In this document: in pieces, positions 3,943 to 58,119 of the stretch
How positions within the stretch are numbered: the stretch's first letter is position 1
How the letters are laid out: the number at the start of each line of letters is the position of its first letter
Source of the DNA: Pseudobacteriovorax antillogorgiicola
GTDB lineage: Bacteria > Bdellovibrionota_B > Oligoflexia > Oligoflexales > Oligoflexaceae
NCBI RefSeq assembly: GCF_900177345.1
Contig: NZ_FWZT01000013.1
Span: 62,001 to 126,000, forward strand
Length of the DNA: 64,000 bases
Reading direction: 5' to 3'
The notes under the pieces: generated by a model
Databases searched by the model: none
Told to the model about the DNA's origin: nothing
What the model saw: the letters and a program-made list of their open reading frames with translations, nothing else
Program-made: the position numbers and the translations under genes

Positions 3943-4929
3943 CTAAAAAAGATCAAGTTTCTTCTGATCAATCAACTGATCGCCTATTCCGTAGCGCAGC
4001 ACTTCTACTTGCTGCTCATCAATTGAAAATTCTAGGTAAGCGCCTTTAAGACCACCGCCAGCGACAAAGGTGTGAATGCGATCAGGTCCCCCCAAGCCTT
4101 CTGGCCTTTGCCAAGGAATGTACCAGTTGTTACTTAATGGAGAAAGGTGAACATGCCCAGTGATAATAGCAGCCACATTGTATTCTGCAAGCACCTCCCA
4201 ATAAGCACGTCTTTGGCTCTCCGTCCACCATTCCTCGCCATAGGCTCCCTTTGAAAATGGATCAAAGCCATAGTGATGAACCAAAACTATCTGCTGAGTC
4301 TTATCGTGAACTTGGTCCTGTAAAACCTTTTTCAAAAAACTAAGACTCCTTTGTGGCGAGATGTTAGGAAATTGTGGAGCGGGCTCATCTGCGGGAAATA
4401 CATTTAAGTGAACCAGCTGAACAGAAGACCATAGCCAGCTATAATGGGGTTTCTGTTTTAGGTTCAGAGAGGTATTTCGAGTTTTTTCATCTAAAGTTTG
4501 AGCGATAACGTCGGGGTACACACAAGATCCCAGACCAAGACCACAGGCTAAGCGTTGACCAAAACTCGGCCTTTCAACATCGTGATTACCTAAGCCCTCG
4601 AAAACGTCCTCACGATGACTAGCAATACTACTTAGATACCATTCAAACTCGTCTTTGCGAGAATTTTGAGTGAGGTCGCCAGCAACCAAAACCCCGTGTA
4701 GGCCCGGGTCTCGATCCAAGCGCTGAAACATTCTCAAAAAAGTCTCGTTAGATGACTGCTTGCGATCCTGATTTCCATTTTCAAATTGGCAATCTGCCGT
4801 GGCTAAGAAGCGTATCTCCGCAAACCCTAAGCTACTGCCAAGCAGGATGATCAGGAGTGCTGCGATGTTCAAACCTCTTAGTTTTCTAGGACAACGTATC
4901 GATATTATCTGGAATGTTTTAGTAGTCAT
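3943..4929 (-). CDS. Secreted calcineurin-like metallophosphoesterase
   Basis: A 328-residue phosphoesterase. The start at 4929 (MTTKTFQ) is preferred over the ATG at 4941 because GGAG lies nine bases upstream of it. An N-terminal hydrophobic segment (about residues 20-36) ending near FAE suggests export. The two-metal site is visible: ATADCQ (a variant of DxH with Gln), AGDLTQNS, GLGNHD, LVHHYG and ITGHVH. It is the last gene of the minus-strand cluster; the 74-base gap to the sulfatase-like gene still allows read-through. A role in trimming a phosphate or phosphodiester from the cluster product outside the cytoplasm is inference. Confidence 0.85.
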   Translation of the reverse strand: MTTKTFQIISIRCPRKLRGLNIAALLIILLGSSLGFAEIRFLATADCQFENGNQDRKQSSNETFLRMFQRLDRDPGLHGVLVAGDLTQNSRKDEFEWYLSSIASHREDVFEGLGNHDVERPSFGQRLACGLGLGSCVYPDVIAQTLDEKTRNTSLNLKQKPHYSWLWSSVQLVHLNVFPADEPAPQFPNISPQRSLSFLKKVLQDQVHDKTQQIVLVHHYGFDPFSKGAYGEEWWTESQRRAYWEVLAEYNVAAIITGHVHLSPLSNNWYIPWQRPEGLGGPDRIHTFVAGGGLKGAYLEFSIDEQQVEVLRYGIGDQLIDQKKLDLF

Positions 4930-5003
4930 AGCAAGCTCCATAGATGGTTAATAAGGGCTCACTAGCATACCCATATAAAGCATAAAGGAAGGCTTGATTA
5001 AAA

Positions 5004-6563
5004 CTACATTCCTGATGATCGCTCACTGAGGGAACTGGTCTGCAATGGTGTTGATAAAAGTTCAATCAAGAATTGAGGAAAGCCTTCCGCTGCGAGAACA
5101 GATGACTTGGAACTAGGAATGAGGCCATCTCCTAAAAAAGTCGAGTTGCTTAGTGGAAATGGGCTAATAATATGTAAGGGGACAAAGTTACCTACCCGCT
5201 TAGATGGTATCACTCCGTGAGGCGGATGATCACCCAAGACAATCACGAGATCGTCCTGACTAAGATAGTTCTCTATCGCAAAGGAAATGACATCAAGATC
5301 GTAGATCAGGCTAGCAATATAAGCGTCATCGACCTTGCTTTCCGGCTGCCAGAAAGACTTCTTCAGCCCCGTCCCATGGTGTTCCAGGATATCAAGGCGA
5401 GTTCCAAAAAGTGGCAGGCGCCCGTTCCATGGGGTATGGGAAGCAAGCAAGAAAAACTCAACAAACCAAGGTTTCTTGTCTTCTTTTTTGGAAATGATAT
5501 GATCGAATACATATCGGATTGTGTACTCATCAGGTATCCCTCCCCACCCAAAGTAAGGGCCTCGATAGCCTAAATCTTCAGCAATGACACTTGATTGAAA
5601 CTTATAGGTTTCCTTTTCCTCTGCAAGTAGACCAAACTTAGTGCCTGGCTTGACTTCCATCGTATGATATCCATGGCGATTGAAAAGATGCGGTAGACAA
5701 AGGAGGGAAGATCGAAAGACCGCTTTAAACTTGATTTGGTTATCGACGAAAACACCACAATTAATGCTGGCAAATGCCATCCAAGATTGCCCCCCAAACA
5801 CAGGAGACGCGATCACTCCCGAGCCATAATGGTAAGCTCGATGTCTAAACTGTTCACCTAGTTGACTCCAACGTTTCTCAAGTTCCTGGCTTAAGTCAAA
5901 CGCATTCAGTCCATAAGATTCCAAAATAAAAATAAAAATCTGCGGTTTTCTGGGTAGCTGATGATTTGCCAGCAGGGGCTCAGTCTTAGCTTTCTGAACC
6001 GCTAAGGATTCAGAAAAACCCAGGAGCGTTTCTCGATGAGAAAAGCTCCGCAACGCCTTTGCCAGTTGTCGTTCAATCATGCTCTTGTTAGGATAGCAGC
6101 AGTGGTGAATTTCATGCCCTGCTATAAGAATGGCAAATGCTAAACAAGCTAACGTTGATCTTTTTAACCCAGCCAGATCATCTCTAAGGTTTCTCAAAAG
6201 AACGAAAGATCCATAAAGTAATAAACCAAGGACAATACATAACCCTAGAATGATGAGGTAGCTAGCACTCCCATAATTCATCTCTAAATATTGAAAAAAA
6301 TTTCTGATTAGCAACCAGTCAAGACCCAAGTAGAGCTTGCGATTCATGAAGTAGACAAGTAGCCCGTCTCCAATATTCAACAGCATACTTATAAAAATGA
6401 TCACGCTCGCTAGAGGAATCAGGGCAGGTATGAAACCAGCTAATAGTAGAAGCCAAGCGGTATCATAATTTGGTATAAAAAGCGTTCCCCACGACAGCTC
6501 ATCCCAGGCTAGCCCTGAGAGATGGAATAGGTATAGGACGATGATGATCCTAAGATTCTTCAT
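5004..6563 (-). CDS. Membrane-anchored sulfatase/phosphotransferase-like enzyme (alkaline phosphatase superfamily)
   Basis: A 519-residue protein with about five N-terminal membrane segments (residues 1-160) followed by an extracytoplasmic sulfatase-like domain. The domain has FIFILESYG (metal/nucleophile region), a Ser-rich loop near VFGGQSW, and VIVLGDHPPHG with the DH metal pair. This architecture is that of LTA-synthase or phosphoethanolamine-transferase relatives, which transfer phospho-alcohol head groups from phospholipids to glycans or lipids. The start overlaps the flippase-like gene by 14 bases, implying translational coupling. The acceptor is unknown; it may decorate the product of this cluster. 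Confidence 0.8.
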   Translation of the reverse strand: MKNLRIIIVLYLFHLSGLAWDELSWGTLFIPNYDTAWLLLLAGFIPALIPLASVIIFISMLLNIGDGLLVYFMNRKLYLGLDWLLIRNFFQYLEMNYGSASYLIILGLCIVLGLLLYGSFVLLRNLRDDLAGLKRSTLACLAFAILIAGHEIHHCCYPNKSMIERQLAKALRSFSHRETLLGFSESLAVQKAKTEPLLANHQLPRKPQIFIFILESYGLNAFDLSQELEKRWSQLGEQFRHRAYHYGSGVIASPVFGGQSWMAFASINCGVFVDNQIKFKAVFRSSLLCLPHLFNRHGYHTMEVKPGTKFGLLAEEKETYKFQSSVIAEDLGYRGPYFGWGGIPDEYTIRYVFDHIISKKEDKKPWFVEFFLLASHTPWNGRLPLFGTRLDILEHHGTGLKKSFWQPESKVDDAYIASLIYDLDVISFAIENYLSQDDLVIVLGDHPPHGVIPSKRVGNFVPLHIISPFPLSNSTFLGDGLIPSSKSSVLAAEGFPQFLIELLSTPLQTSSLSERSSGM

Positions 6564-7383
6564 GGGACCTCATTATAAACGTCATGGAAGATATGAGAAG
6601 AACGAAACCAACCGCCGAAGCAAATGAAACGAGGCCAAGCATCACGGCTCCTGCTAGTAGCTCCTCCTCTTGAAAACCCATGCCGTGGAACAAGGATATG
6701 GCTGCCCACTCCCGGATTCCCCAGCCATTAAAACTAATAGGCACAGCCAGACAGAAGAGAAAGATCGGCAGTACGAGAACAAAGTCCCGTGTTACAGCCA
6801 TCGAGCCACCTAAGAGCAAGATAAAAATAATCGAAGTCATGATATTTAGTAGAACTGAATAGATCACCGCACGGCCTAGGAGATGATGATGAAAACTAAG
6901 GAGTAGGACTGATAAGGCTAAACTGATAGTAGCAAATACAAGGATACTAAAATGAGTCGTCCATGTTAGGCAAAAAAGAAAGCCAATTGACAAAGGTAGA
7001 GAGAGACGGTCCACAACAACAGTCTTTAAAACTTTTCTGTATTGACTTTCTTTTCCCAGCTCTATAGTCCGCAGGGCATCTCCTGCCCAAGGGCCAGGCA
7101 GGCAATGATTCAAGAGGTGACTGCGAGCATAGACCTTTGCTGTGGGCCAAAAACTATGAGGACACTGGCTTCGAACAAGCACACTTCGCCATCGCTCAAA
7201 GCCAATCAAAACCTGAACCAAGCCCAGTACAAGTGATAAAGCAACTGCACGAAAGGGAGTTTCCTGAATTGCTGTGCCAACGGCAGACCATTCAAAAAAG
7301 TAGAAACAGCTCAGTACTAAAATGATAGAACCAAGGATTTCAAGCCAAGGTCTTACCTCCCGCGGCCTAGACCAAACACGCAT
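6550..7383 (-). CDS. Flippase-like integral membrane protein (lysylphosphatidylglycerol synthase TM region/UPF0104 type)
   Basis: A 277-residue polytopic protein with about seven or eight hydrophobic segments. FERWRSVL early on, HLLNHCLPGPWAGDALRT, VVVDRLSLPLS and SFNGWGIREW near 220-230 match the family fold seen in the membrane half of MprF and in AglD-like proteins. These are thought to move lipid-linked molecules between leaflets. It overlaps the FkbM gene by 17 bases and the sulfatase-like gene by 14, so it sits in the tightest part of the operon. Its likely job is to flip the lipid-linked product made by the upstream enzymes. Confidence 0.78.
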   Translation of the reverse strand: MRVWSRPREVRPWLEILGSIILVLSCFYFFEWSAVGTAIQETPFRAVALSLVLGLVQVLIGFERWRSVLVRSQCPHSFWPTAKVYARSHLLNHCLPGPWAGDALRTIELGKESQYRKVLKTVVVDRLSLPLSIGFLFCLTWTTHFSILVFATISLALSVLLLSFHHHLLGRAVIYSVLLNIMTSIIFILLLGGSMAVTRDFVLVLPIFLFCLAVPISFNGWGIREWAAISLFHGMGFQEEELLAGAVMLGLVSFASAVGFVLLISSMTFIMRSHEES

Positions 7384-8113
7384 AGATATCGCCAGACTTA
7401 TCCTTTAGAGGAAGCGCCTTTAAAACAGCAACCATTTCGTCCCGACTAAACCAGCGCCCTGATTGAAATCGCATGGACTCTGTCTGAGACCAATTAAAAA
7501 CATAGTCTCCTAACCCCGACAGATAGTCGATACAGCGGATCGCTCGATCCTTGGTTACAGGTATATACTCGAACGAGACCATGGGGAGTGGTTCTGTTAA
7601 ACCCTGTAAAACTTCTTCCTCGTAGCCCTCAACATCAATTTTACAAAAAGCTGGCCGACCATAAGCTTTGATAAGATGATCAAGGGTATACAGGGGTACA
7701 TTTTCTCGTCGATTCCACTTGATCTTTCCGAAGCGACGATCCCGCTGCACATCCTCAATCCAGGCCTCACTCAAAGTACTAACCGTTGGCGTTTGGTCGC
7801 TCACTAGTATGGATGCCTCTCCATTTTGTTGTCCAATGGCAGCCCTCAAGACCTCGATAGAGCGGTTATTAGAAAAGCGTTTGATAAGAAGCTGAAAGAA
7901 TTTCTGTTGGGGTTCGATAGCCACTACTTGAGCCCCGAGCTTCGCCCAGACGGCCGCTCGGCTCCCTACATGACAACCCAAATCGAAGCAAAGATCCCCC
8001 GAATCGATGAACTTACCATAGAATCGGCTTAGTCGCCGTTTACGGCCTGGAATCCACCGATAGATTGCTAACGAACGAAACATTCCCCACTGACTGCTGA
8101 AGTACTTTAGCAT
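7367..8113 (-). CDS. FkbM-family SAM-dependent methyltransferase
   Basis: A 248-residue Rossmann-fold methyltransferase. The SAM-binding loop FDLGCHVGSRAAVW lies at about residues 43-56, the acidic ribose-binding strand is VVAIEPQ, and the FkbM signature KIDVEGYEEEVLQGL is near 160-174. FkbM enzymes O-methylate sugars or polyketide hydroxyls. An AAGGG ribosome site precedes the ATG, and only three bases separate it from the glycosyltransferase gene. Methylation of the sugar added by the glycosyltransferase is a reasonable inference. Confidence 0.88.
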   Translation of the reverse strand: MLKYFSSQWGMFRSLAIYRWIPGRKRRLSRFYGKFIDSGDLCFDLGCHVGSRAAVWAKLGAQVVAIEPQQKFFQLLIKRFSNNRSIEVLRAAIGQQNGEASILVSDQTPTVSTLSEAWIEDVQRDRRFGKIKWNRRENVPLYTLDHLIKAYGRPAFCKIDVEGYEEEVLQGLTEPLPMVSFEYIPVTKDRAIRCIDYLSGLGDYVFNWSQTESMRFQSGRWFSRDEMVAVLKALPLKDKSGDIYACLV

Positions 8114-8116
8114 GAT

Positions 8117-9073
8117 TCACCCTTCCCCATCTAAGGACTCTAAGAAATTTAGCCAATCAGACCCAACATCAGCCCAAGTTCTAGAGGCCCACGATGATTG
8201 CGAGGGATCGCAATAAACACGCTCCGCTAACCATTCTTGAAGGAATCGCCGAACCACTGGTGCGCTTGCTTTCACATGCCACCCATGATGCTCTGCTAAG
8301 TAGGACCTTGGCGCGCCCTCTGCGCAGTTCATTATAGGTAGACCCACCGCCATTGCTTCTTGGATTGCAATTCCATGAGATTCATAAGGAGCGGCTGCTA
8401 TATAAAGGCCTGCCCTCCTTAACCACTGGGCAACTTGTTGCTGATCCAGCTCCCCGTGAAATTTGATCCTTGTTGTGAGTTTAAGCTGTTCGACGCGAAC
8501 TTTCAATTCGTCCGCATAGGTGGGACATAGATTTTTGTTGCCTATGATATGATAGGACCAAGGCCCAGGGAGACTCTTCATCGCCTCCAATACAATATGA
8601 TAGCCCTTCTCAGGCAATACACTTCCTACTGAAACCCAAAGGTTTCGCGGCCTGTCCAAAGGCACACCGTGAAACAAGTCATGATCAATACCTGGTGCGA
8701 TCACCTGGTGCTTTGGGATTTCACCCCTGTGCTTACGAAGATCTTCAACTAGGGAATGTCCAGGAAAAACGGAAAAGTCGTAATGCGACAAGTTTTCCCC
8801 TAAAAGAGCTTCCCCTAATGGACCATGACAGATAGCAATTCTACAACGCTGATCTTTATCAAGGTCAATCAGTGGATTCAGAATACTATCAACTAATAAG
8901 ATGCCAGCGGAGCTGCCAAAGTTCCTCGTTTTGAAAATTCGACCGCGGGGAATTGAGTGCTCACGAATATCCCACTGACAAGTTTTGCGCAAATACGTAA
9001 TTAACTTTCGATTGTAGAGGTTGCCACCTGTCATGGCTCCATGAAAGTGAGGTAGCAATATATCAATGTTCAT
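8117..9073 (-). CDS. GT4-type glycosyltransferase
   Basis: A 318-residue GT-B glycosyltransferase. The donor-binding half begins LWVSVGSVLPEKGYH (near 165), has IIGNK and KFHGELDQQQVAQWL. The family E-x7-E element is ESHGIAIQEAMAVGLPI (near 235-250). It transfers an activated sugar to an acceptor on the inner membrane face. The ATG follows the stop of the PTPS-like gene by three bases and has no clear ribosome site of its own, suggesting coupling. The substrate is unknown; neighbours suggest a pterin- or lipid-linked acceptor. Confidence 0.88.
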   Translation of the reverse strand: MNIDILLPHFHGAMTGGNLYNRKLITYLRKTCQWDIREHSIPRGRIFKTRNFGSSAGILLVDSILNPLIDLDKDQRCRIAICHGPLGEALLGENLSHYDFSVFPGHSLVEDLRKHRGEIPKHQVIAPGIDHDLFHGVPLDRPRNLWVSVGSVLPEKGYHIVLEAMKSLPGPWSYHIIGNKNLCPTYADELKVRVEQLKLTTRIKFHGELDQQQVAQWLRRAGLYIAAAPYESHGIAIQEAMAVGLPIMNCAEGAPRSYLAEHHGWHVKASAPVVRRFLQEWLAERVYCDPSQSSWASRTWADVGSDWLNFLESLDGEG

Positions 9074-9076
9074 AGA

Positions 9077-9457
9077 TCAAATAAAAGTCTCTCTGTAGGA
9101 TGCCCAGGACTGACCATCTTCCCAGACTTTGATCATGCCCTGAGAGAAGCGCCTTCGATCCAGATCTTCAAATAGCTCAGACGCTATTATTCTAGAGAAG
9201 TTTTCGATGCTTGGATTGAGACCATCAAATTCTGGAAGGTCATTCAAGAGTCGATCCCGATATTTATCAACGAGGCGCTCTAGTGCGACATTCAATTTTG
9301 AAATATCCGCAACGTAGCCATGATCGTCGAGATTGGGTGACGAAAGAATCATTTCAATGACAAAGTGATGGGAATGAGGACAATTCTCGTGTCCCCAGTC
9401 GCCGCCTATTAAATAATGCTGGCAGATAACTTCTCGCTTGATGCCTACTTCATACAT
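9077..9457 (-). CDS. Divergent 6-pyruvoyl-tetrahydropterin synthase/QueD family protein
   Basis: A 126-residue protein. The ATG at 9457 follows AGGAGG by four bases and is chosen over an upstream TTG at 9493. The C-terminal half is typical of the family: GYVADISKL, LLNDLPEFDG and LNPSIENF, the last containing the conserved substrate-binding region. The zinc site is altered: one His (14), then HSH (His28, His30), with the only nearby Cys at 26. In QueD the Cys sits four residues before HGH. A GGDW segment fills the loop. Canonical members act on dihydroneopterin triphosphate; this one probably acts on a related pteridine or pyrimidine. Confidence 0.85.
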   Translation of the reverse strand: MYEVGIKREVICQHYLIGGDWGHENCPHSHHFVIEMILSSPNLDDHGYVADISKLNVALERLVDKYRDRLLNDLPEFDGLNPSIENFSRIIASELFEDLDRRRFSQGMIKVWEDGQSWASYRETFI

Positions 9458-9489
9458 AGAGCCTCCTTCGTGTGACTTTCTTAACGGGA

Positions 9490-10479
9490 TCAATATTCAA
9501 AGCAAACCTGCAAACTCGACCCAGCTTGCTTCGAAAGCCATGGATAGGTGTCTGGACCCTCAACAAATGGGATTCGATGGCTGATCAAAGGGCTTAAATC
9601 AAGCTTTCGAAGGATATCCCAAACGATCTCAAAGCGCTTTTTCTTATCTAGAAAGCTACTAAATAAGGGATTGATTTCGCTTACCTGAGAGCTAACTAAA
9701 TCAATTCGTCGTCGATGAAAACTCGTACCTAATATAGGACCTGGCCCTTGATCACCGTACCAAGATCCAACGATTATGCGGCCATGGGTTCCACAGTGTT
9801 CGATCCCTTCCTGTAGAACTTGAGCTTGTCCGCTTAGCTCCACGAGGACATGATAATCGTGATCCATTTCAGAGATACTGGTAAAAGTCTTGGCTAATCC
9901 GGATATTTCGCAACGATTCAGATGACGGTCCAAGCCATGAATTTCAACTCCCCATTGATTAGTTAGGAGTCGACTTGTCAATTGCCCTAGCACTCCTAAA
10001 CCTAAAACAGCAACCTTCTCTCCAACTTGAACCTGAGCATCCATAGCAATGCTGAGGGCTGTTTCCAGGTTGGGAAACAGCGTCGCTAACTCGCTCGGAA
10101 CCTCATTAGGGATAAGTTGCCAATCTTCGATTCTTGCATGGAAATAGTCTTGGTGAGGAGTGAATGAGAAAACCCTGCGGCCTAGCAGGGCTGTATCTAG
10201 GCCTGAACCTACGGCCTCAATCTCACCGACGTTTGCATATGCAAAGGCACAAGGAAACGAGCTTTCCTGGGAAAGGCCTTCGATACTTTTATCCAGTGGC
10301 AAACTTGGGTTCAGGCCTCCGTGATAGACAAGTAACTCACTGCCAGCACTCACACCGCTGTAAAGGGTGCGGACTCTTGCTTGCCAGGGTTCTAGTGGCT
10401 CTAGCTGAACATCTCTAATACCAGCCTGATAAGGTGCAGGAAAGTATATTTGTCGCGCCAGCCCTTGATTCATGGGCAT
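9490..10479 (-). CDS. Medium-chain dehydrogenase/reductase without the catalytic zinc site
   Basis: A 329-residue MDR-superfamily oxidoreductase. The N-terminal domain has SGVSAGSELLVYHG where zinc alcohol dehydrogenases have the catalytic Cys. The GHE motif is replaced by FAYANVGEI, so the catalytic zinc is absent. The nucleotide-binding loop VAVLGLGVLGQL is intact near 160-171. The pattern recalls BchC-like dehydrogenases that use NAD(P) without zinc. It overlaps the RibD-like gene by ten bases. It probably oxidises or reduces an intermediate of the cluster pathway. Confidence 0.82.
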   Translation of the reverse strand: MPMNQGLARQIYFPAPYQAGIRDVQLEPLEPWQARVRTLYSGVSAGSELLVYHGGLNPSLPLDKSIEGLSQESSFPCAFAYANVGEIEAVGSGLDTALLGRRVFSFTPHQDYFHARIEDWQLIPNEVPSELATLFPNLETALSIAMDAQVQVGEKVAVLGLGVLGQLTSRLLTNQWGVEIHGLDRHLNRCEISGLAKTFTSISEMDHDYHVLVELSGQAQVLQEGIEHCGTHGRIIVGSWYGDQGPGPILGTSFHRRRIDLVSSQVSEINPLFSSFLDKKKRFEIVWDILRKLDLSPLISHRIPFVEGPDTYPWLSKQAGSSLQVCFEY

Positions 10480-11225
10480 GCTACCATCTCTGATGATGCA
10501 CGGTGATCTTGATATCTACCATAGACAATCAAATCTGGCCCTAGAATCTGATATTGAGCCTGATCAATTACACCTGACAAGGAAACCCTAAAGTTGCTGT
10601 AACGTACAGATCGCTGCGAACCTAGAAACACTGGACTCAAGGTTACCACAAAGTAGTTGACCAATGAATTTTGGAGAAAGTCATGGATTGTACGGCCTCC
10701 ACCCTCTACCATCAAGGTTTTAATCTCCAGATTTTTTAGCTTACTCATGATCTTATAGAGATAAAAAGGCTCAGAGAATGAACCGGCCAATAGATTCGCT
10801 CCTGTTGCCCCCTGAAACTCTTCCCTCTTACTCAGAGGCACAGTTTCGTCGCAGCAGATGATTGGCGTTTTACATCTAAGTTTAAAGATTCGACTGTCAG
10901 TTGGAGTATCCAGGTTTGGGTCGAGCACTACCGCAGTGGGGGACGGCCCCTCGACCAGCCGCACATTGAGCTGAGGGTCGTCAACTAATATTGTATTGAT
11001 GCCAACTAGAATTCCATCGTGAATGGCACGGATCTGGTGCGTTAAGATGTCTGCTTCATAATCTGAAATTTTTGTCGATTGATCTTTTTCAGCAGATAGG
11101 CAGGCATCCAAAGATTGAGCAAAGCTGAGAGTTACAAAAGGAGTCTCTCGGTCTTCTCTCAAACATCCCTCATGCTGCTCTATAAGTTCTGCTAGAATCT
11201 TTGCTCGTATCGTGCATGAGTCCAT
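10470..11225 (-). CDS. RibD C-terminal/dihydrofolate-reductase-fold reductase
   Basis: A 251-residue stand-alone reductase of the RibD_C family. PFVTLSFAQSLDACLS at about 29-44, GILVGINTILVDDPQLNVR near 72-90, and TLMVEGGGRTIHDFL near 180-194 are the NADPH and substrate-binding elements. In riboflavin biosynthesis this fold reduces the ribosyl side chain of a diaminopyrimidine phosphate to ribityl. No deaminase domain is attached, so it is not a full RibD. It abuts the CDP-alcohol transferase gene by one base. In this context it may reduce a ribosyl group on a pyrimidine or pteridine precursor. Confidence 0.88.
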   Translation of the reverse strand: MDSCTIRAKILAELIEQHEGCLREDRETPFVTLSFAQSLDACLSAEKDQSTKISDYEADILTHQIRAIHDGILVGINTILVDDPQLNVRLVEGPSPTAVVLDPNLDTPTDSRIFKLRCKTPIICCDETVPLSKREEFQGATGANLLAGSFSEPFYLYKIMSKLKNLEIKTLMVEGGGRTIHDFLQNSLVNYFVVTLSPVFLGSQRSVRYSNFRVSLSGVIDQAQYQILGPDLIVYGRYQDHRASSEMVACP

Positions 11226-11905
11226 TAAGTCCTCACTGGCTGCTTACTTTTGATTTGAATTCTTCTATTCTGTCTCATAAAGAAGATCAGGTCGAGACTA
11301 AATGACCAAGTAAGTAATATCCCCACAGATAGAAGTGCCCAGGTTGAGCCTGAGCTGGGAGCTACAACTTGCGCCAGAATCACGAGATAGCTCAACAAGA
11401 AGACCAGCCGCCCCCCACTGCTACGCCTTTCCTGAAGGACTGCGGGCCACAGTTGAAAGCGCAGCACAACCACAATGGAACGTAAAAGCCCCAGAAAGAT
11501 AACAGCAGCCAGAGGTTCTTGGCTCCATGCGATCAACATGGTCATTGAAAGGACTGTAAGTGAATCCAATTCAACGTCAAACATGCTGCCGACCTGGGTC
11601 TCACAGCGAAGGCGGCGAGCGATAAAGCCGTCTAAGCCATCCAAGAGTAAAGCTACAAGCAATCCAAACATGAGTGTTTGCGACGAACTACACAGCGCTG
11701 CTAGAGTTACAGCGGCCCTCAGGAGCGTCACGCCATTGGCTAGATTCCAGCTACCCTCGCCAAACCTCCAAAGTAGAATGGATATTGCAGCAAAAAAATA
11801 GAACCAGATGATCACAAGGGTTTCACTGGCATAGGCGCTAAAAGCAAGACCAAGCAGGCCCAGGTGATAAAGCTTCGTCCATGATTGATCCGCTATCGTA
11901 GGCAT
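11225..11905 (-). CDS. CDP-alcohol phosphatidyltransferase
   Basis: A 226-residue membrane enzyme with about six hydrophobic segments. It carries a perfect family signature near residues 88-113: D-G-x2-A-R-x8-G-x3-D-x3-D, beginning DGLDGFIARR. The family displaces CMP from a CDP-alcohol (for example CDP-diacylglycerol) with a second alcohol. It is the first gene of the nine-gene minus-strand cluster, with a gap of about 100 bases to the next upstream gene. It could attach a lipid or polyol phosphate to the product of the RibD, MDR and PTPS-like enzymes. It could instead be an ordinary phospholipid enzyme, but the coupling to the RibD gene argues for a pathway role. Confidence 0.88.
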   Translation of the reverse strand: MPTIADQSWTKLYHLGLLGLAFSAYASETLVIIWFYFFAAISILLWRFGEGSWNLANGVTLLRAAVTLAALCSSSQTLMFGLLVALLLDGLDGFIARRLRCETQVGSMFDVELDSLTVLSMTMLIAWSQEPLAAVIFLGLLRSIVVVLRFQLWPAVLQERRSSGGRLVFLLSYLVILAQVVAPSSGSTWALLSVGILLTWSFSLDLIFFMRQNRRIQIKSKQPVRT

Positions 11906-46164: not shown

Positions 46165-47817
46165 TTAGCGGTCCGCAAAAAACACAGTATTATCGAAGTA
46201 GTTTCCTAAGTCTGAGTTGCGTTGCAAAACATCCGCGAGGGTGCTTCTTTCGATATACTCACGCCAGAAACCATCCTTGAAGACGTTTTCGTACCAGAAA
46301 CGATCGCCATCTCGCAATCGAATGAACTGATCTGTAAGAATGCTTGTGAAAGTTTCTCCCAGTCGGCTACCTCCTAACTTGTCTTCACTGAGGCCCCCCA
46401 CCCAAAGCTCCACGCGATCGGGGTGACCATAAGCTTCTTCTAAGTTTGCGGCGATCTCGGAATTTGAAGTGATACCCTGCTGATCTCTAGAATGACGTTT
46501 CAAGAATCTAGATTTTTTATTGTAACCTAGCTCCTGTCTCATTTCGTTATAGGTCGGGAGGAGGTGATCACGACCTCTTTGGATATTCAAAGCGGCAAGA
46601 TCTGATCCAGCAGATGGAGGGGGCCCAAACAAGAAGCTTCTGACATCTTCAACGATAGCTGTATCGATCTTCTGACTTCGGTTCATCGAAAAACCTAGAA
46701 GAATTTTTTCGGGACCTAGCTCCCTGTAGAGAGTCGGGTTAAAGAATGCATTTCTGAGCTTCAAATCCTGAGTTCTAAGCTGACCATTAACAATGTTTGC
46801 AACTTTGAGATCACTGGAAAGCATTGAGTGACCAAAGCGAAACGCCGCTGAAGCGAATACATCCTCGATATTTGGATTTATATTTGAGTTGTAGCCTTGA
46901 TAAGGGAATAAAGGTCGACCCAATAGTAGAGGTAAAAATTCATCATAGGTGATCTTCTGGACAATTCCACCAACGATCAACCTAGCAAATTCGTAAACGT
47001 CATCATCTGCCAATTGAGGGTGAAACCCTCGAATCACCTCCACCACATTGTTATGCTCACGAACAAAAATATTATGCATTGCACTCAGGCCTATGTGTTC
47101 ATTAGCCCGTACATCTCCAGCTGCATAGAAACCAGGTCGGCCGGAACCCCCATCATCATTTTCAATGCCATCAATGATTGGTAGTAGGTCGTTGGCTGAT
47201 ACGGCCAATCTAGCAGAATCATTTTGATCCCGAAGTAGCTCGGCACGCTCTGAATCGGAGCCATAGACCTGTGAACCATCGATAAACGCGGTAAGGCGAT
47301 TAAACTGCCTTTTCCCACCTTGATCCCGAACAATAGCTGACCGGTTAAATGATATCGTTACGCCACCGCGATTTTTAGGATCAAAAAACGAGTCACCTCT
47401 AGGGACTTCAATAGGCATAGACTGAGTCGGGTCTTGAGGTACTAGAGTGATATCATGATCAAGAAATTGACCCCATAGCCAAAATAGATCGCTCACTTGC
47501 TCACGACCTTGAGCTGTAGCTTGACGAGCTACGATATTACTGATGTCACGAGGGCTTCTCAAATCAGAAAAATCATCATTATCCTGGCTAGCCCTGAGAG
47601 AGAAAAATGATTTCAGTAGTAGCGTTTCCTGTCCTTCATTGCCTGCACTGCCAAAAAAGGGATTATTGCGATTGTTTCCATAGCCATCGATAGAACGGAA
47701 CTCACCGGGAACCGAGGGAAAATTAAATGGTGGTAAAAAATTATTATCCCCTGGTAACCTGATATCCCCCAGAGCCGAAGCTGAAATGGATAGTGCTATC
47801 GCCGATAAAGTTTTCAT
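46165..47817 (-). CDS. Secreted animal-type haem peroxidase
   Basis: A 550-residue protein of the myeloperoxidase/peroxinectin family. The ATG at 47817 follows AGGAGA; the signal peptide ends near SALG. Distal-side features: WLWGQFLDHDITL with the distal His. VRANEHIGLSAMHNIFVREHN follows. The proximal His is in FRFGHSM. The ND/AALNIQRGRDH block near the C terminus is conserved. It oxidises halides or phenolic substrates with hydrogen peroxide. Such proteins occur sporadically in bacteria. Single gene. Confidence 0.9.
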   Translation of the reverse strand: MKTLSAIALSISASALGDIRLPGDNNFLPPFNFPSVPGEFRSIDGYGNNRNNPFFGSAGNEGQETLLLKSFFSLRASQDNDDFSDLRSPRDISNIVARQATAQGREQVSDLFWLWGQFLDHDITLVPQDPTQSMPIEVPRGDSFFDPKNRGGVTISFNRSAIVRDQGGKRQFNRLTAFIDGSQVYGSDSERAELLRDQNDSARLAVSANDLLPIIDGIENDDGGSGRPGFYAAGDVRANEHIGLSAMHNIFVREHNNVVEVIRGFHPQLADDDVYEFARLIVGGIVQKITYDEFLPLLLGRPLFPYQGYNSNINPNIEDVFASAAFRFGHSMLSSDLKVANIVNGQLRTQDLKLRNAFFNPTLYRELGPEKILLGFSMNRSQKIDTAIVEDVRSFLFGPPPSAGSDLAALNIQRGRDHLLPTYNEMRQELGYNKKSRFLKRHSRDQQGITSNSEIAANLEEAYGHPDRVELWVGGLSEDKLGGSRLGETFTSILTDQFIRLRDGDRFWYENVFKDGFWREYIERSTLADVLQRNSDLGNYFDNTVFFADR

Positions 47818-48310
47818 AATTGATCTCCTGTTGTAGTGCACAGGAGCCTAGAGCAACTTTTGTACCAGACAAATCTGAGGGAAAGTTCCTATAAAAAACC
47901 TATTTAGTCATGTAATCTTTGTTTTTAAAGATGCCAAGATGTCCTATTCAGCTTATGCTGTCCGATAAAATCTTCTAGTAGCTCAGCTGCATTCGCAGTT
48001 TTGCAACAATAAATAAGCTAGTGGCTAGTCAAATTGAATTCTCGTCTAGGCGACAAGGAGCGAGCGAAGAGACAGTACGTGCTGGATACGGTGACGAGCG
48101 AGTGACAAAGTCAACAACGCCGAGACAGCAACTTAAAGATTACAGAGAGCAAGATGTACCAGACTATGGACAAAACTTCCTTCTATCAGAGCAGCTCAGT
48201 TGCCTAGTGGGGCAAAACTAAGGGAAGACGGTTCAAAATTCTTGGTTTTTAACTACGAGACTTAAAGAACCGAATCAGCTAAGCAGATCACAAGGTCAAA
48301 GAAAGCCAGC
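47818..48310. other. Intergenic region with a repetitive purine-rich segment
   Basis: 493 bases lie between the peroxidase promoter side and the P450 3' end. A segment at about 48050-48130 is rich in GAGCGAG, GACAG and GACAAAG words. A 66-residue frame on the plus strand (48021-48221) has low-complexity composition and no ribosome site, so I do not call it. The rest shows nothing recognisable. Confidence 0.45.
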
Positions 48311-54962: not shown

Positions 54963-57900
54963 TTAGCGGTTGCGTACAAAATAGTATTCGTGATTGGCTT
55001 TAAGTGGCTGGCTGAACTTTTGTTTTTTGCCATCAGACCAAATTATATCGATTCTCTGAATCTGGCTCTCATTACCCAGGCCGAAATGGGCTTGATACCC
55101 TTCATAAGACTGAAATCCCCCTCCAGCCTTAATTTCTCTGATTTGGGAGCTTGTTTTCGTATGGACAATGATTTTACAGCCGATGCAGAATCGGTTTCCC
55201 CTGGCATCGCGAAGATGAATGCGTGCTCTATGGTTCTGGTCTTCCTGATTTCGAAACACCTTGATAAGACCATTAAGCGGCATCATAACAATATCTAGAT
55301 CTCCATCGCCGTCAAAGTCTGTATAGATATGCGAGCTAACATCCATTGTGTCGTTTAGAATGTGATCTTGTGCAGCATTCTTGAATGATTTGCCATTTTG
55401 ATTTATAAAATAGCCATTCTTATAGCGTTTCGGGGTAAGCCAGTAGCCATTCGAAACATAGAGATCCTGGTAAGTATCATTGTTGAAGTCAGCAAACTTT
55501 GCATTCCAGCTCCAGCCAGTAATATCAAGCCCTAAGTCGACAGCCTTGTCTTGGAAAGCGTCGCCATTACCCTCCCTCATCAGCAAGACATTATTTTTTT
55601 CAATCTGTGGAATGTAGGGTCGATCCTCACGTTGACGATCCCGCTCGGCCGAGAAGAAAAGGTTACACATGAATCGGTTCCGTTCGTAGGACTTAGGAAT
55701 TTTCTTGCACAGATCGGGTTTCTCTTCTTTAATCGCGACTATCGTTAGCAATTGCACCATGCAGTCTCTCCGGCGTTTGAGATCACCCAGCCTCTTACAA
55801 ACCTTCATATTACCCAGATGGGCCCGACGCCACATCAGCGGCTCTTTAAGTTCAACATTCTCCAGACACGTTTTTCGATCTTTCGGAACAGAAATACTCT
55901 TGCAATAGCTATCATCGTAATCAAAGTAGTCGTCGGATTCAGCGTCATTGAAGTGCCCGGTAATCTGGGCTAGGAATACTTCCATCTGTAGGTCATTGTT
56001 TATGTCGGCGGTGTCAATACTCATGGTATATTTTGTTGTGCGTGGAATAATGGAACCTTCGTATAGCTGCTTTAGCTCACGCCCCCCGTCTGCGCCTGTA
56101 AAGAATAAATCTGGTCTAGAGAAATCATTGCCAACAATCAGATCCATCAAACCGTCCTGATTGAAGTCGCTGAATAAAGTAGTGAGAGTTTCACCGCTAA
56201 TGCTCGGCATCTCCTTGGCCTTAAAGCCTCTTCCTGATTGATTCAAAGCTATTCTATTTCGCGAGTTCTCAGGAGGTTTTTTCGTCATAAATCCCATGTA
56301 CCAATTACCTAGAAAAACATCCAAGTCACCATCTCTATCAAAATCTGCAAAACTGGAAGAGATCGTAACAATTGCATTAGGGTTAGGGATCAATTTTGGG
56401 TGTGAGAGAAATTTCCCCTTTTTATTCTTGAGGTAGAAGACTTCCCCTTTACCGTAAGACGAGCCCAACAAATCAAGCCATCCGTCATTATCCACATCGA
56501 TAAAAGCAGCAAGCATCATATTTTGACTTTTCAATCGTTTGAGTCCTTCAACACGATGGGTCCTGTAACCGCGGCCAGATCGATTTTCAAATAACCGAAA
56601 ACCATTCTCAGTAGCGATAACAATATCTTCATGACCATCACGATTGTAATCACCAGCAGCCATGCCACGACTGAAGAAAAATGGGCTCAGAAAGTCATTG
56701 GTATTATATGCAATGGGTCGATATAGACCTAGCTTTTTACCGGGGACCAGAGCAAAATCACCTTGCCTACCCTGTGGTTCGCGGAGTGCCTTGCCATAGA
56801 TTTTAATCCCCGATGCCGCAGTTAGTAAATTGAAACCTGGAGGAGGCTCTAGACCAGCTTTGATCGGCGAGCCGAAAGCTTTGGGTACCAAAGAAAATTC
56901 TTCCTCGAAAATTTCTAGGCCTTGATTAAAGTTGTACTTAGTGTATTGGTCGGTGACCAATCCTGCGATAACACCAAGGCCTGACACTGCAACGTACATT
57001 TTTAGGGCCAGCTTGAGAGACATCCGGCGACTGATAACCAGAGCTGAATAAATACTATAGGAGCTCAGAGTTAGCATGAGGATCATGACGAATGAATCTG
57101 ATGCACCATTAGCCATAAACGTTTGAGCAAGAACGATATCCAGCCCGATGGGAGCCGGCAGGAAAGTCCCAACGAAGGCTAATAACCCCCAATTCAAAAG
57201 AGAGCCATCGTTGATCAATCGTTCGAATTCGATGAAATGGCCCATCAGTACTCCCAAAAAACCTCCCAGTAACATGAGAGGCCCCGTTGTCACAGCTATC
57301 CAACACAAGTTGTATAAGAAGCTTTTTGTTACTGATAGAATTGAAGTAAGCCAAGTCTCCGAAGAGCTTTGATCTGATGGAACTGCGCAGGCCTCTTTTT
57401 CATCATTCAATTCATGTTCATTTCGCGAGATCCAAGGAACCACCGCTAATACAAGAAGTAAGACGAAAGCAATCTTAATTAGTACAAAGTGAATGGGAAA
57501 CAGAGCAATCATCATTGTCATGACTATCACATTAAAATTAGGGGAACTTACCATCATAGCTAAACTGAAATCAGCCCTTCCAGATGATCGATATGCTCCG
57601 ATTCCAATTGGTGTTGCGCAGTTCACACAAACTCCGAGGGGTGCACCGAATAAGAGCCCTTGGAGAGCATTACTATTACGCCGACGATGTGCTGGTATCA
57701 GGTTGAGCAAGGTCAGGATCGATGCTCCAAAAAGAATCCCAAACATCATCCCCTTCTTGTTTGTGGAGGCCCAATTCGCTGTTTCAACAGCTATAAGGTG
57801 AACGGTATCAGACGATGTGGGAGACCATGTTCGTTCGAAGCTTAGAAGCTCTGACAACTCGATCTCACCAGCCATAGCCGCCTTGCCGTTGAGTTGCGGG

Positions 57901-57974
57901 TAGCGGGAACCAGTCCAAAAGGTGGTAGCTATACTGATCGTTACGAGTGCTGCGATAAAGATTTTTTTAGTCAT
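54963..57974 (-). CDS. Fusion of a permease domain with FG-GAP/VCBS repeats and an ASPIC/UnbV domain
   Basis: A 1003-residue protein of unusual build. Residues 1-335 form a polytopic membrane domain like the DUF318/UPF0718 permeases, with a CxxC at Cys116/Cys119 (VCVNCATPIG) and an SSPNFN element near 143-148. From about 380 to 900 there are FG-GAP/VCBS repeats: AGDYNRDGHEDIVIAT, DVDNDGWLDLLG, DFDRDGDLDVFLGN, DFNQDGLMDLIVGN and DFDGDGDLDIVMM. These are calcium-binding propeller blades. A six-Cys insertion lies near 690-780. The last 100 residues match ASPIC/UnbV. The blades should face the periplasm. Function unknown. Confidence 0.85.
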   Translation of the reverse strand: MTKKIFIAALVTISIATTFWTGSRYPQLNGKAAMAGEIELSELLSFERTWSPTSSDTVHLIAVETANWASTNKKGMMFGILFGASILTLLNLIPAHRRRNSNALQGLLFGAPLGVCVNCATPIGIGAYRSSGRADFSLAMMVSSPNFNVIVMTMMIALFPIHFVLIKIAFVLLLVLAVVPWISRNEHELNDEKEACAVPSDQSSSETWLTSILSVTKSFLYNLCWIAVTTGPLMLLGGFLGVLMGHFIEFERLINDGSLLNWGLLAFVGTFLPAPIGLDIVLAQTFMANGASDSFVMILMLTLSSYSIYSALVISRRMSLKLALKMYVAVSGLGVIAGLVTDQYTKYNFNQGLEIFEEEFSLVPKAFGSPIKAGLEPPPGFNLLTAASGIKIYGKALREPQGRQGDFALVPGKKLGLYRPIAYNTNDFLSPFFFSRGMAAGDYNRDGHEDIVIATENGFRLFENRSGRGYRTHRVEGLKRLKSQNMMLAAFIDVDNDGWLDLLGSSYGKGEVFYLKNKKGKFLSHPKLIPNPNAIVTISSSFADFDRDGDLDVFLGNWYMGFMTKKPPENSRNRIALNQSGRGFKAKEMPSISGETLTTLFSDFNQDGLMDLIVGNDFSRPDLFFTGADGGRELKQLYEGSIIPRTTKYTMSIDTADINNDLQMEVFLAQITGHFNDAESDDYFDYDDSYCKSISVPKDRKTCLENVELKEPLMWRRAHLGNMKVCKRLGDLKRRRDCMVQLLTIVAIKEEKPDLCKKIPKSYERNRFMCNLFFSAERDRQREDRPYIPQIEKNNVLLMREGNGDAFQDKAVDLGLDITGWSWNAKFADFNNDTYQDLYVSNGYWLTPKRYKNGYFINQNGKSFKNAAQDHILNDTMDVSSHIYTDFDGDGDLDIVMMPLNGLIKVFRNQEDQNHRARIHLRDARGNRFCIGCKIIVHTKTSSQIREIKAGGGFQSYEGYQAHFGLGNESQIQRIDIIWSDGKKQKFSQPLKANHEYYFVRNR

Positions 57975-58119
57975 GAACCTTTCGTCTTCCAAATAATTTC
58001 ATTGAAATATCGGGACATTCGAAGCGATGCTTGACCTAGAGCGGAGTTGGATTAGGCTTAACCTAATCGTAGGCTTTAGAATTGGGAAAAACTTGAGGAA
58101 TTCCATGTAAGACGCAAAA

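Follow-up and report, generated by a model that had tools for sequence, protein, structure and literature searches.

The window, a stretch of 64,000 nucleotides from the Pseudobacteriovorax antillogorgiicola genome, carries nine open reading frames on its minus strand at 3943–11905, and all nine from the preliminary description were recovered. The first gene encodes a CDP-alcohol phosphatidyltransferase (CDP-OH; 11225–11905; PF01066, 54 bits) with an intact motif, DGLDGFIARRLRCETQVGSMFDVELD. It is followed by a stand-alone RibD_C reductase (10470–11225; PF01872, 119 bits), a zinc-less MDR dehydrogenase related to BchC (9490–10479; TIGR01202 bchC, 52 bits, below cut-off), a PTPS/QueD-like T-fold protein (9077–9457; PF01242, 82 bits), a GT4 glycosyltransferase (8117–9073; PF00534, 74 bits), an FkbM methyltransferase (7367–8113; TIGR01444, 90 bits), a flippase-like membrane protein of the LPG_synthase_TM (UPF0104) family (6550–7383; PF03706, 68 bits), a membrane enzyme resembling LtaS and EptC (5004–6563) and a secreted calcineurin-like phosphoesterase (3943–4941; PF00149, 42 bits). 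Pfam matches above the curated cut-offs were obtained for Metallophos, LPG_synthase_TM, FkbM, GT4, PTPS, RibD_C and CDP-OH_P_transf. The PTPS-like protein had been assigned a TTG start at 9493; we place its start at the ATG at 9457, behind the ribosome-binding site AAGGAGG (9462–9468, minus strand), which gives a protein of 126 amino acids.

The first eight genes are spaced by -17 to +32 bases and form a tight operon, in agreement with the close packing described earlier. That description does not extend to the phosphoesterase, which lies 62 bases past the eighth gene and 453 bases from the gene that follows it. When the window's own protein was used as the only seed, a metallophosphoesterase was found in no other locus of the 90 considered below, and its inclusion as a ninth member is doubtful. 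The G+C content of the nine-gene region equals that of its surroundings. A sigma-70 promoter scan gave scores no better than those of shuffled sequences and no clear promoter, searches of the window for Rfam families and tRNAs gave no hits, and anti-phage libraries gave one marginal match to the cluster, the FkbM protein. Elsewhere in the window, 46165–47841 (minus strand) encodes a full-length animal-type haem peroxidase (PF03098, E 2e-131), a kind of enzyme uncommon among bacteria, and 54963–57992 (minus strand) encodes an FG-GAP and ASPIC/UnbV protein whose N-terminal part matches an ArsP-like permease, an odd pairing of domains.

A genome scan with the single MDR sequence gave no matches, whereas an alignment-based scan of 84,980 genomes added 80 further loci, the best 80 of 561 confirmed MDR relatives. 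The resulting set comprised 90 loci around the MDR gene from haloarchaea, Chloroflexota, Proteobacteria, Desulfobacterota, Actinomycetota and others; 57 of them had flanks of 8.5 kb or more on either side of MDR and are referred to as full. Searches with tblastn also showed MDR and PTPS genes side by side on plasmids of Haloarcula and other haloarchaea, Rhizobiaceae, Methylosinus, Rhodobacteraceae, Thiodictyon and Streptomyces. With HMMs built in this analysis, the families found near MDR in the 57 full loci were PTPS (56), GT4 (52), class I methyltransferase (51), CDP-OH (43), RibD_C (36–37), the flippase family (30), GTP cyclohydrolase (GCH) II or III (28), LtaS-like enzymes (19), FkbM (12) and cytochrome b561 (10), and all six core genes occurred together in 28. 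Because RibD_C, GCH II, PTPS and CDP-OH are each present in only 2–4 copies in the 7.3 Mb genome, chance alone predicts about 1% or less for an 18 kb region; the observed frequencies around MDR were 63%, 40%, 98% and 75%, respectively. The linkage is therefore far beyond chance, and the gene set is not a chance grouping. The preliminary description had held that families scattered singly in relatives would speak against a common pathway; instead, their linkage is conserved in bacteria and archaea, and within the window's own phylum it was seen in this genome only. A near-complete counterpart of the window set occurs in Peteryoungia, where LtaS-like, flippase, FkbM, CDP-OH, MDR, PTPS, GT4 and RibD_C genes are joined by GCH II, methyltransferase and cytochrome b561 genes.

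Distance matrices of the cluster families agreed with that of MDR to degrees that partly reflect plain relatedness (PTPS 0.81, RibD_C 0.79, GCH II 0.82, flippase 0.83, CDP-OH 0.73), and CDP-OH agreed with the flippase at 0.88. Agreement with MDR was weak for GT4 (0.29) and the methyltransferase (0.51), and the decorations therefore vary or were swapped. Alternatively, the operon could serve an ordinary glycolipid or surface polymer, with PTPS, RibD_C and MDR each working on unrelated substrates, since GT4, FkbM, flippase and LtaS-like genes are generally common in surface-polymer loci. We consider this highly improbable, because the invariant core consists of the pterin and pyrimidine genes, within which no pair is linked more tightly than MDR and PTPS (56/57), and because GCH II is added to it either as a separate gene or as a fusion to RibD_C.

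Several neighbours recurred in addition to these families. In eight loci (L017, L019, L020, L024, L028, L036, L061 and L067), seven of them gamma-proteobacterial, a YceI-family gene sits within or beside the cluster, and the ten loci with a cytochrome b561 gene are different ones; both neighbours fit a redox-active membrane product. In haloarchaeal loci such as L010, L033, L034 and L065, a large Gfo/Idh/MocA oxidoreductase gene adjoins the CDP-alcohol transferase gene. Two metagenome bins (L023 and L057) are titled Klebsiella pneumoniae, and these titles are probably wrong; the cluster form and the place in the MDR tree are those of marine gamma-proteobacteria.

The genes for lipid and glycan functions fall into recurrent pairs. 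In many clusters the CDP-OH gene stands beside the flippase gene, and GT4 and methyltransferase genes make up a second adjacent pair; at the place of this second pair the window has GT4 and FkbM, the FkbM gene standing where other clusters have a class I methyltransferase. The CDP-OH motif D-x2-DG-x2-AR...G-x3-D-x3-D is complete in 51 of 52 cluster homologues, including that of the window, which shares this full catalytic motif with PgsA and PIP synthase but scores far below all NCBIfam subfamily cut-offs. Most of the earlier family calls were borne out by Pfam and NCBIfam; the exception was the gene described as sulfatase-like. Its PF00884 match is below the cut-off, and it has no C/S-x-P-x-R signature, with GGQSWMAF at the nucleophile. 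The best PDB folds for its structural model (pLDDT 72.8) were LtaP, LtaS and EptC, with which it shares the fold and metal motifs (ESYG, GGxSW, SH, GDH) at about 13% identity, and it combines a membrane part with an alkaline-phosphatase-like domain bearing the metal motifs, as LtaS/EptA-type enzymes do. The model thus identifies it as a predicted membrane head-group transferase of the LtaS/EptC-like alkaline phosphatase superfamily. Members of this group transfer phosphoglycerol or phosphoethanolamine head groups. Its nucleophile appears to be the conserved Ser of GGxSW, at the position of the Thr nucleophile of LtaS, LtaP and EptC.

The PTPS-like protein was confirmed to be divergent, with its zinc ligands kept and its catalytic residues replaced. 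The zinc triad His26/His40/His42 (138-aa numbering) is retained, as is Glu125, which was invariant among cluster homologues when residues were compared in 81 loci and which corresponds to the Glu by which QueD and PTPS hold the 2-amino-pyrimidinone edge. The place of the catalytic Cys (CxxxHGH or CxxxxxHGH) is occupied by Glu, and alignment to QueD (4NTK) puts Arg-Asp at the place of the Asp-His pair. The AlphaFold model (pLDDT 93.8) is a T-fold; its best Foldseek match was Streptomyces coelicolor SCO6650 (3D7J, E 3e-11), followed by QueD (4NTK, E 7e-10), and aldolases were also among the matches. SCO6650 is the best match in sequence as well, at 23% identity, but it is of the FGPAQ..HGAT form and has lost one zinc His, whereas the window protein has all three and reads DWGHEN in place of the FGPAQ motif of PTPS-IV. 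The authors of the SCO6650 work are said to have described a T-fold with pterin-binding residues kept, no zinc or catalytic triad and no PTPS reaction. Across the loci the family takes two forms. The first, with three zinc His and GGDWGxENxxHSHH, is found in the window, Chloroflexota, gamma-proteobacteria, Desulfobacterota and, as a variant, haloarchaea; the second, FGPAQxxHGAT, lacks one zinc His and is found in alpha-proteobacteria, Streptomyces, Nocardiopsis and Thiodictyon. Glu125 is present in both forms, and neither has the catalytic Cys or the Asp/His pair. Since one subtype lacks a zinc His, the two are not required to share a reaction.

The adjacent MDR gene has no Pfam match but matches BchC and other MDR models. 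BchC handles a secondary alcohol. The description of this enzyme as zinc-less held up: the Cys that binds catalytic zinc is replaced by an invariant Ser44, and the zinc His is missing as well. The second Rossmann strand ends in a nearly invariant Asp184, which suggests that the enzyme uses NAD.

The RibD_C protein points to the metabolite at which the cluster may branch from riboflavin synthesis. Bacterial RibD carries out deamination and then reduction, whereas in archaea and fungi reduction comes first. Work on complexes of Bacillus subtilis RibG reportedly showed that Lys151 adapts the bacterial reductase to a substrate that is already deaminated. This position is not Lys in any of the 54 readable cluster RibD_C proteins (Ser in the window), and the genome's housekeeping RibD, aligned to RibG, retains the equivalent of Lys151. 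The window protein thus has neither a deaminase domain nor Lys151, as in the stand-alone archaeal and fungal diaminopyrimidine reductases of the Rib7/ArfC type. Its nearest solved relatives are the diamino-ribosylamino-pyrimidinone reductases of this archaeal/fungal type, although its score against TIGR01508 (97.5 bits) is below the curated cut-off of 186.45, and, in contrast to Rib7/ArfC of riboflavin synthesis, its cluster is without the later riboflavin genes. RibD_C was present in 37 of 44 full bacterial loci and in none of 13 archaeal ones (Fisher p 3e-8). Haloarchaea already produce the reduced diaminopyrimidine in their own B2 route, so the absence of RibD_C from archaeal clusters is what would be expected if that compound is the branch point. 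From the loss of Lys151 and the lack of RibD_C in haloarchaeal loci, we infer that the branch metabolite is likely 2,5-diamino-6-ribitylamino-pyrimidinone phosphate.

Cyclohydrolase genes are consistent with this assignment. The genome's RibA, used as a seed, gave 34 matches in the 90 loci; GCH II occurred in 34 bacterial loci and GCH III in five archaeal loci (5/20 haloarchaeal). The cluster cyclohydrolases retain their active-site Tyr and, but for one odd frame (L021), the zinc Cys motif, and GCH II is fused to RibD_C in three loci (L043, L044 and L059; Pfam was run on L044). In haloarchaea, where clusters are without RibD_C and only 5 of 20 have GCH III, the housekeeping pathway must therefore supply the precursor. 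This counts against the pathway proposed below, as do the absence of RibD_C and the flippase family from haloarchaeal clusters and the lack of both GCH II and a class I methyltransferase in the window cluster. Beside ribA and near the cluster, Streptomyces fungicidicus (L012, 16759–18252) has a creatininase-family gene; formamidases of this family act after GTP cyclohydrolases that leave a formamide.

Single-seed searches with the genome's own proteins, which a very distant copy could escape, found no relative of RibB, RibH, FolE or the RibD deaminase in the 90 loci. The lack of RibB, RibH and the deaminase speaks against another reading, in which the product is a soluble cofactor or a compound resembling riboflavin, such as a relative of F420 or of flavins, and the lipid genes are neighbours with a separate job. 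A review does place PTPS-IV in F420 synthesis, citing unpublished data (PMC5041015). We nevertheless regard a soluble product as improbable, since no radical SAM protein of the CofG/CofH kind was among the recurrent unassigned neighbours, and CDP-OH is present in 43 of the 57 full loci with distances that follow those of MDR (0.73) and the flippase (0.88).

The cluster was probably gained horizontally by this organism, since only 1 of 58 genomes examined from its phylum, that of P. antillogorgiicola, has the MDR gene. The window gene formed a very long branch in the MDR tree, which therefore placed neither it nor a donor; the window operon is a divergent member of a widespread cluster. The host has its own RibBA, stand-alone RibA, RibD, RibH and two FolE genes, and the cluster copies are therefore extra. 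We considered the intact stand-alone RibA on contig 7 as a GCH II dedicated to the window cluster. It is more likely the housekeeping enzyme, because the RibBA on contig 25 (L101, 844–1998) has lost the zinc Cys motif from its GCH II half.

Part of this neighbourhood was known before. A 2017 network study of 561 PTPS-IV sequences (COG0720) noted GTP cyclohydrolase PF00925 and RibD_C nearby (PMC5445326). This arrangement matches the wider cluster; the window has only the RibD_C. That study treats PF00925 as GTP cyclohydrolase I/FolE2, although in Pfam this accession stands for GTP cyclohydrolase II, and the label may have hidden the link to riboflavin. The accessible parts of the two PTPS-IV accounts (PMC5445326, PMC5041015) describe no MDR, CDP-OH, GT4, methyltransferase, flippase, haloarchaeal form or product. 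In line with the preliminary description, which knew of no product, our search found no literature on the full gene set, a pterin lipid or a product of the cluster, and as it mostly did not reach subscription papers this absence is no proof.

Taken together, the gene set, its linkage, the fusions, the state of the motifs and the folds lead us to propose, with a probability of about 0.6, that the cluster makes a membrane lipid with a 2-amino-4-oxopyrimidine or pterin-type head group in six steps. First, GCH II, in many relatives encoded within the cluster and in the window's case probably the cell's stand-alone RibA, would convert GTP to 2,5-diamino-6-ribosylamino-pyrimidinone phosphate. Second, RibD_C would reduce the ribose ahead of any deamination, giving a ribityl compound that retains its 2-amino group. 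Third, the zinc-less, NAD-type MDR enzyme would oxidise the ribityl chain, most simply at C2', to a 1-deoxy-2-keto compound, the same as the one that GTP cyclohydrolase I forms by Amadori rearrangement. Fourth, the PTPS-like T-fold protein may aid closure of the 5-amino group onto the ketone, yielding a dihydroneopterin-type pterin phosphate; because C1' reduction and C2' oxidation would give an Amadori-type ketone, the kind that GTP cyclohydrolase I turns into its pterin ring, the T-fold protein is a natural candidate for this role. Fifth, the CDP-alcohol transferase would join the pterin phosphate to the phosphatidyl group of CDP-diacylglycerol, in the way that PgsA and PIP synthase use phosphorylated polyols. 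Sixth, GT4 and the methyltransferase would decorate the lipid, the LPG_synthase_TM protein would flip it, and the LtaS/EptC-like enzyme would move a phospho-head-group on the outer face. Steps one and two are best supported and steps three and four least; the C2' position and the ring closure derive from pathway logic. This pathway preserves the earlier idea of a pyrimidine- or pterin-derived head group that is linked to lipid, given sugar and methyl groups, flipped and completed on the outside, which fits all findings apart from the ninth gene and the type of the supposed sulfatase.

The enzymes might instead stop at the pyrimidine. In that case the lipid would carry an open diamino-ribitylamino-pyrimidine or a product with a shortened side chain, the PTPS-like protein would be an aldolase or epimerase, MDR would act on a later intermediate, and no new pterin ring would form. 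PTPS and dihydroneopterin aldolase share the T-fold, aldolases were among the fold matches, and in the zinc-keeping subtype Glu replaces the catalytic Cys; PTPS-III, according to PMC5041015, uses a nearby Glu. This explanation is the strongest of the rivals but still rather unlikely, as it leaves the loss of the zinc site in one PTPS subtype unexplained and gives the tightest pair, MDR and PTPS, no joint role.

A pterin head group made by the six steps would imply a second route from GTP to pterin without GTP cyclohydrolase I, in which C1' reduction by RibD_C and NAD-linked C2' oxidation by MDR replace the Amadori step, the T-fold protein closes the ring, and the pterin ends up on a membrane lipid that may work as a membrane redox carrier or an antioxidant (cytochrome b561 in 10 loci, YceI in 8). 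We offer this full scheme only tentatively. The cluster occurs in culturable Haloarcula, Methylosinus, Rhizobium relatives and Streptomyces, among them Haloarcula marismortui ATCC 43049, Methylosinus trichosporium OB3b and Streptomyces fungicidicus. If the lipid proposal is true, the PTPS-IV family, since 2008 just a structure without an activity, would gain a function, and a lipid class spanning archaea and many bacterial phyla would come to light; should the proposed route hold as well, it would be a new way of building the pterin ring.
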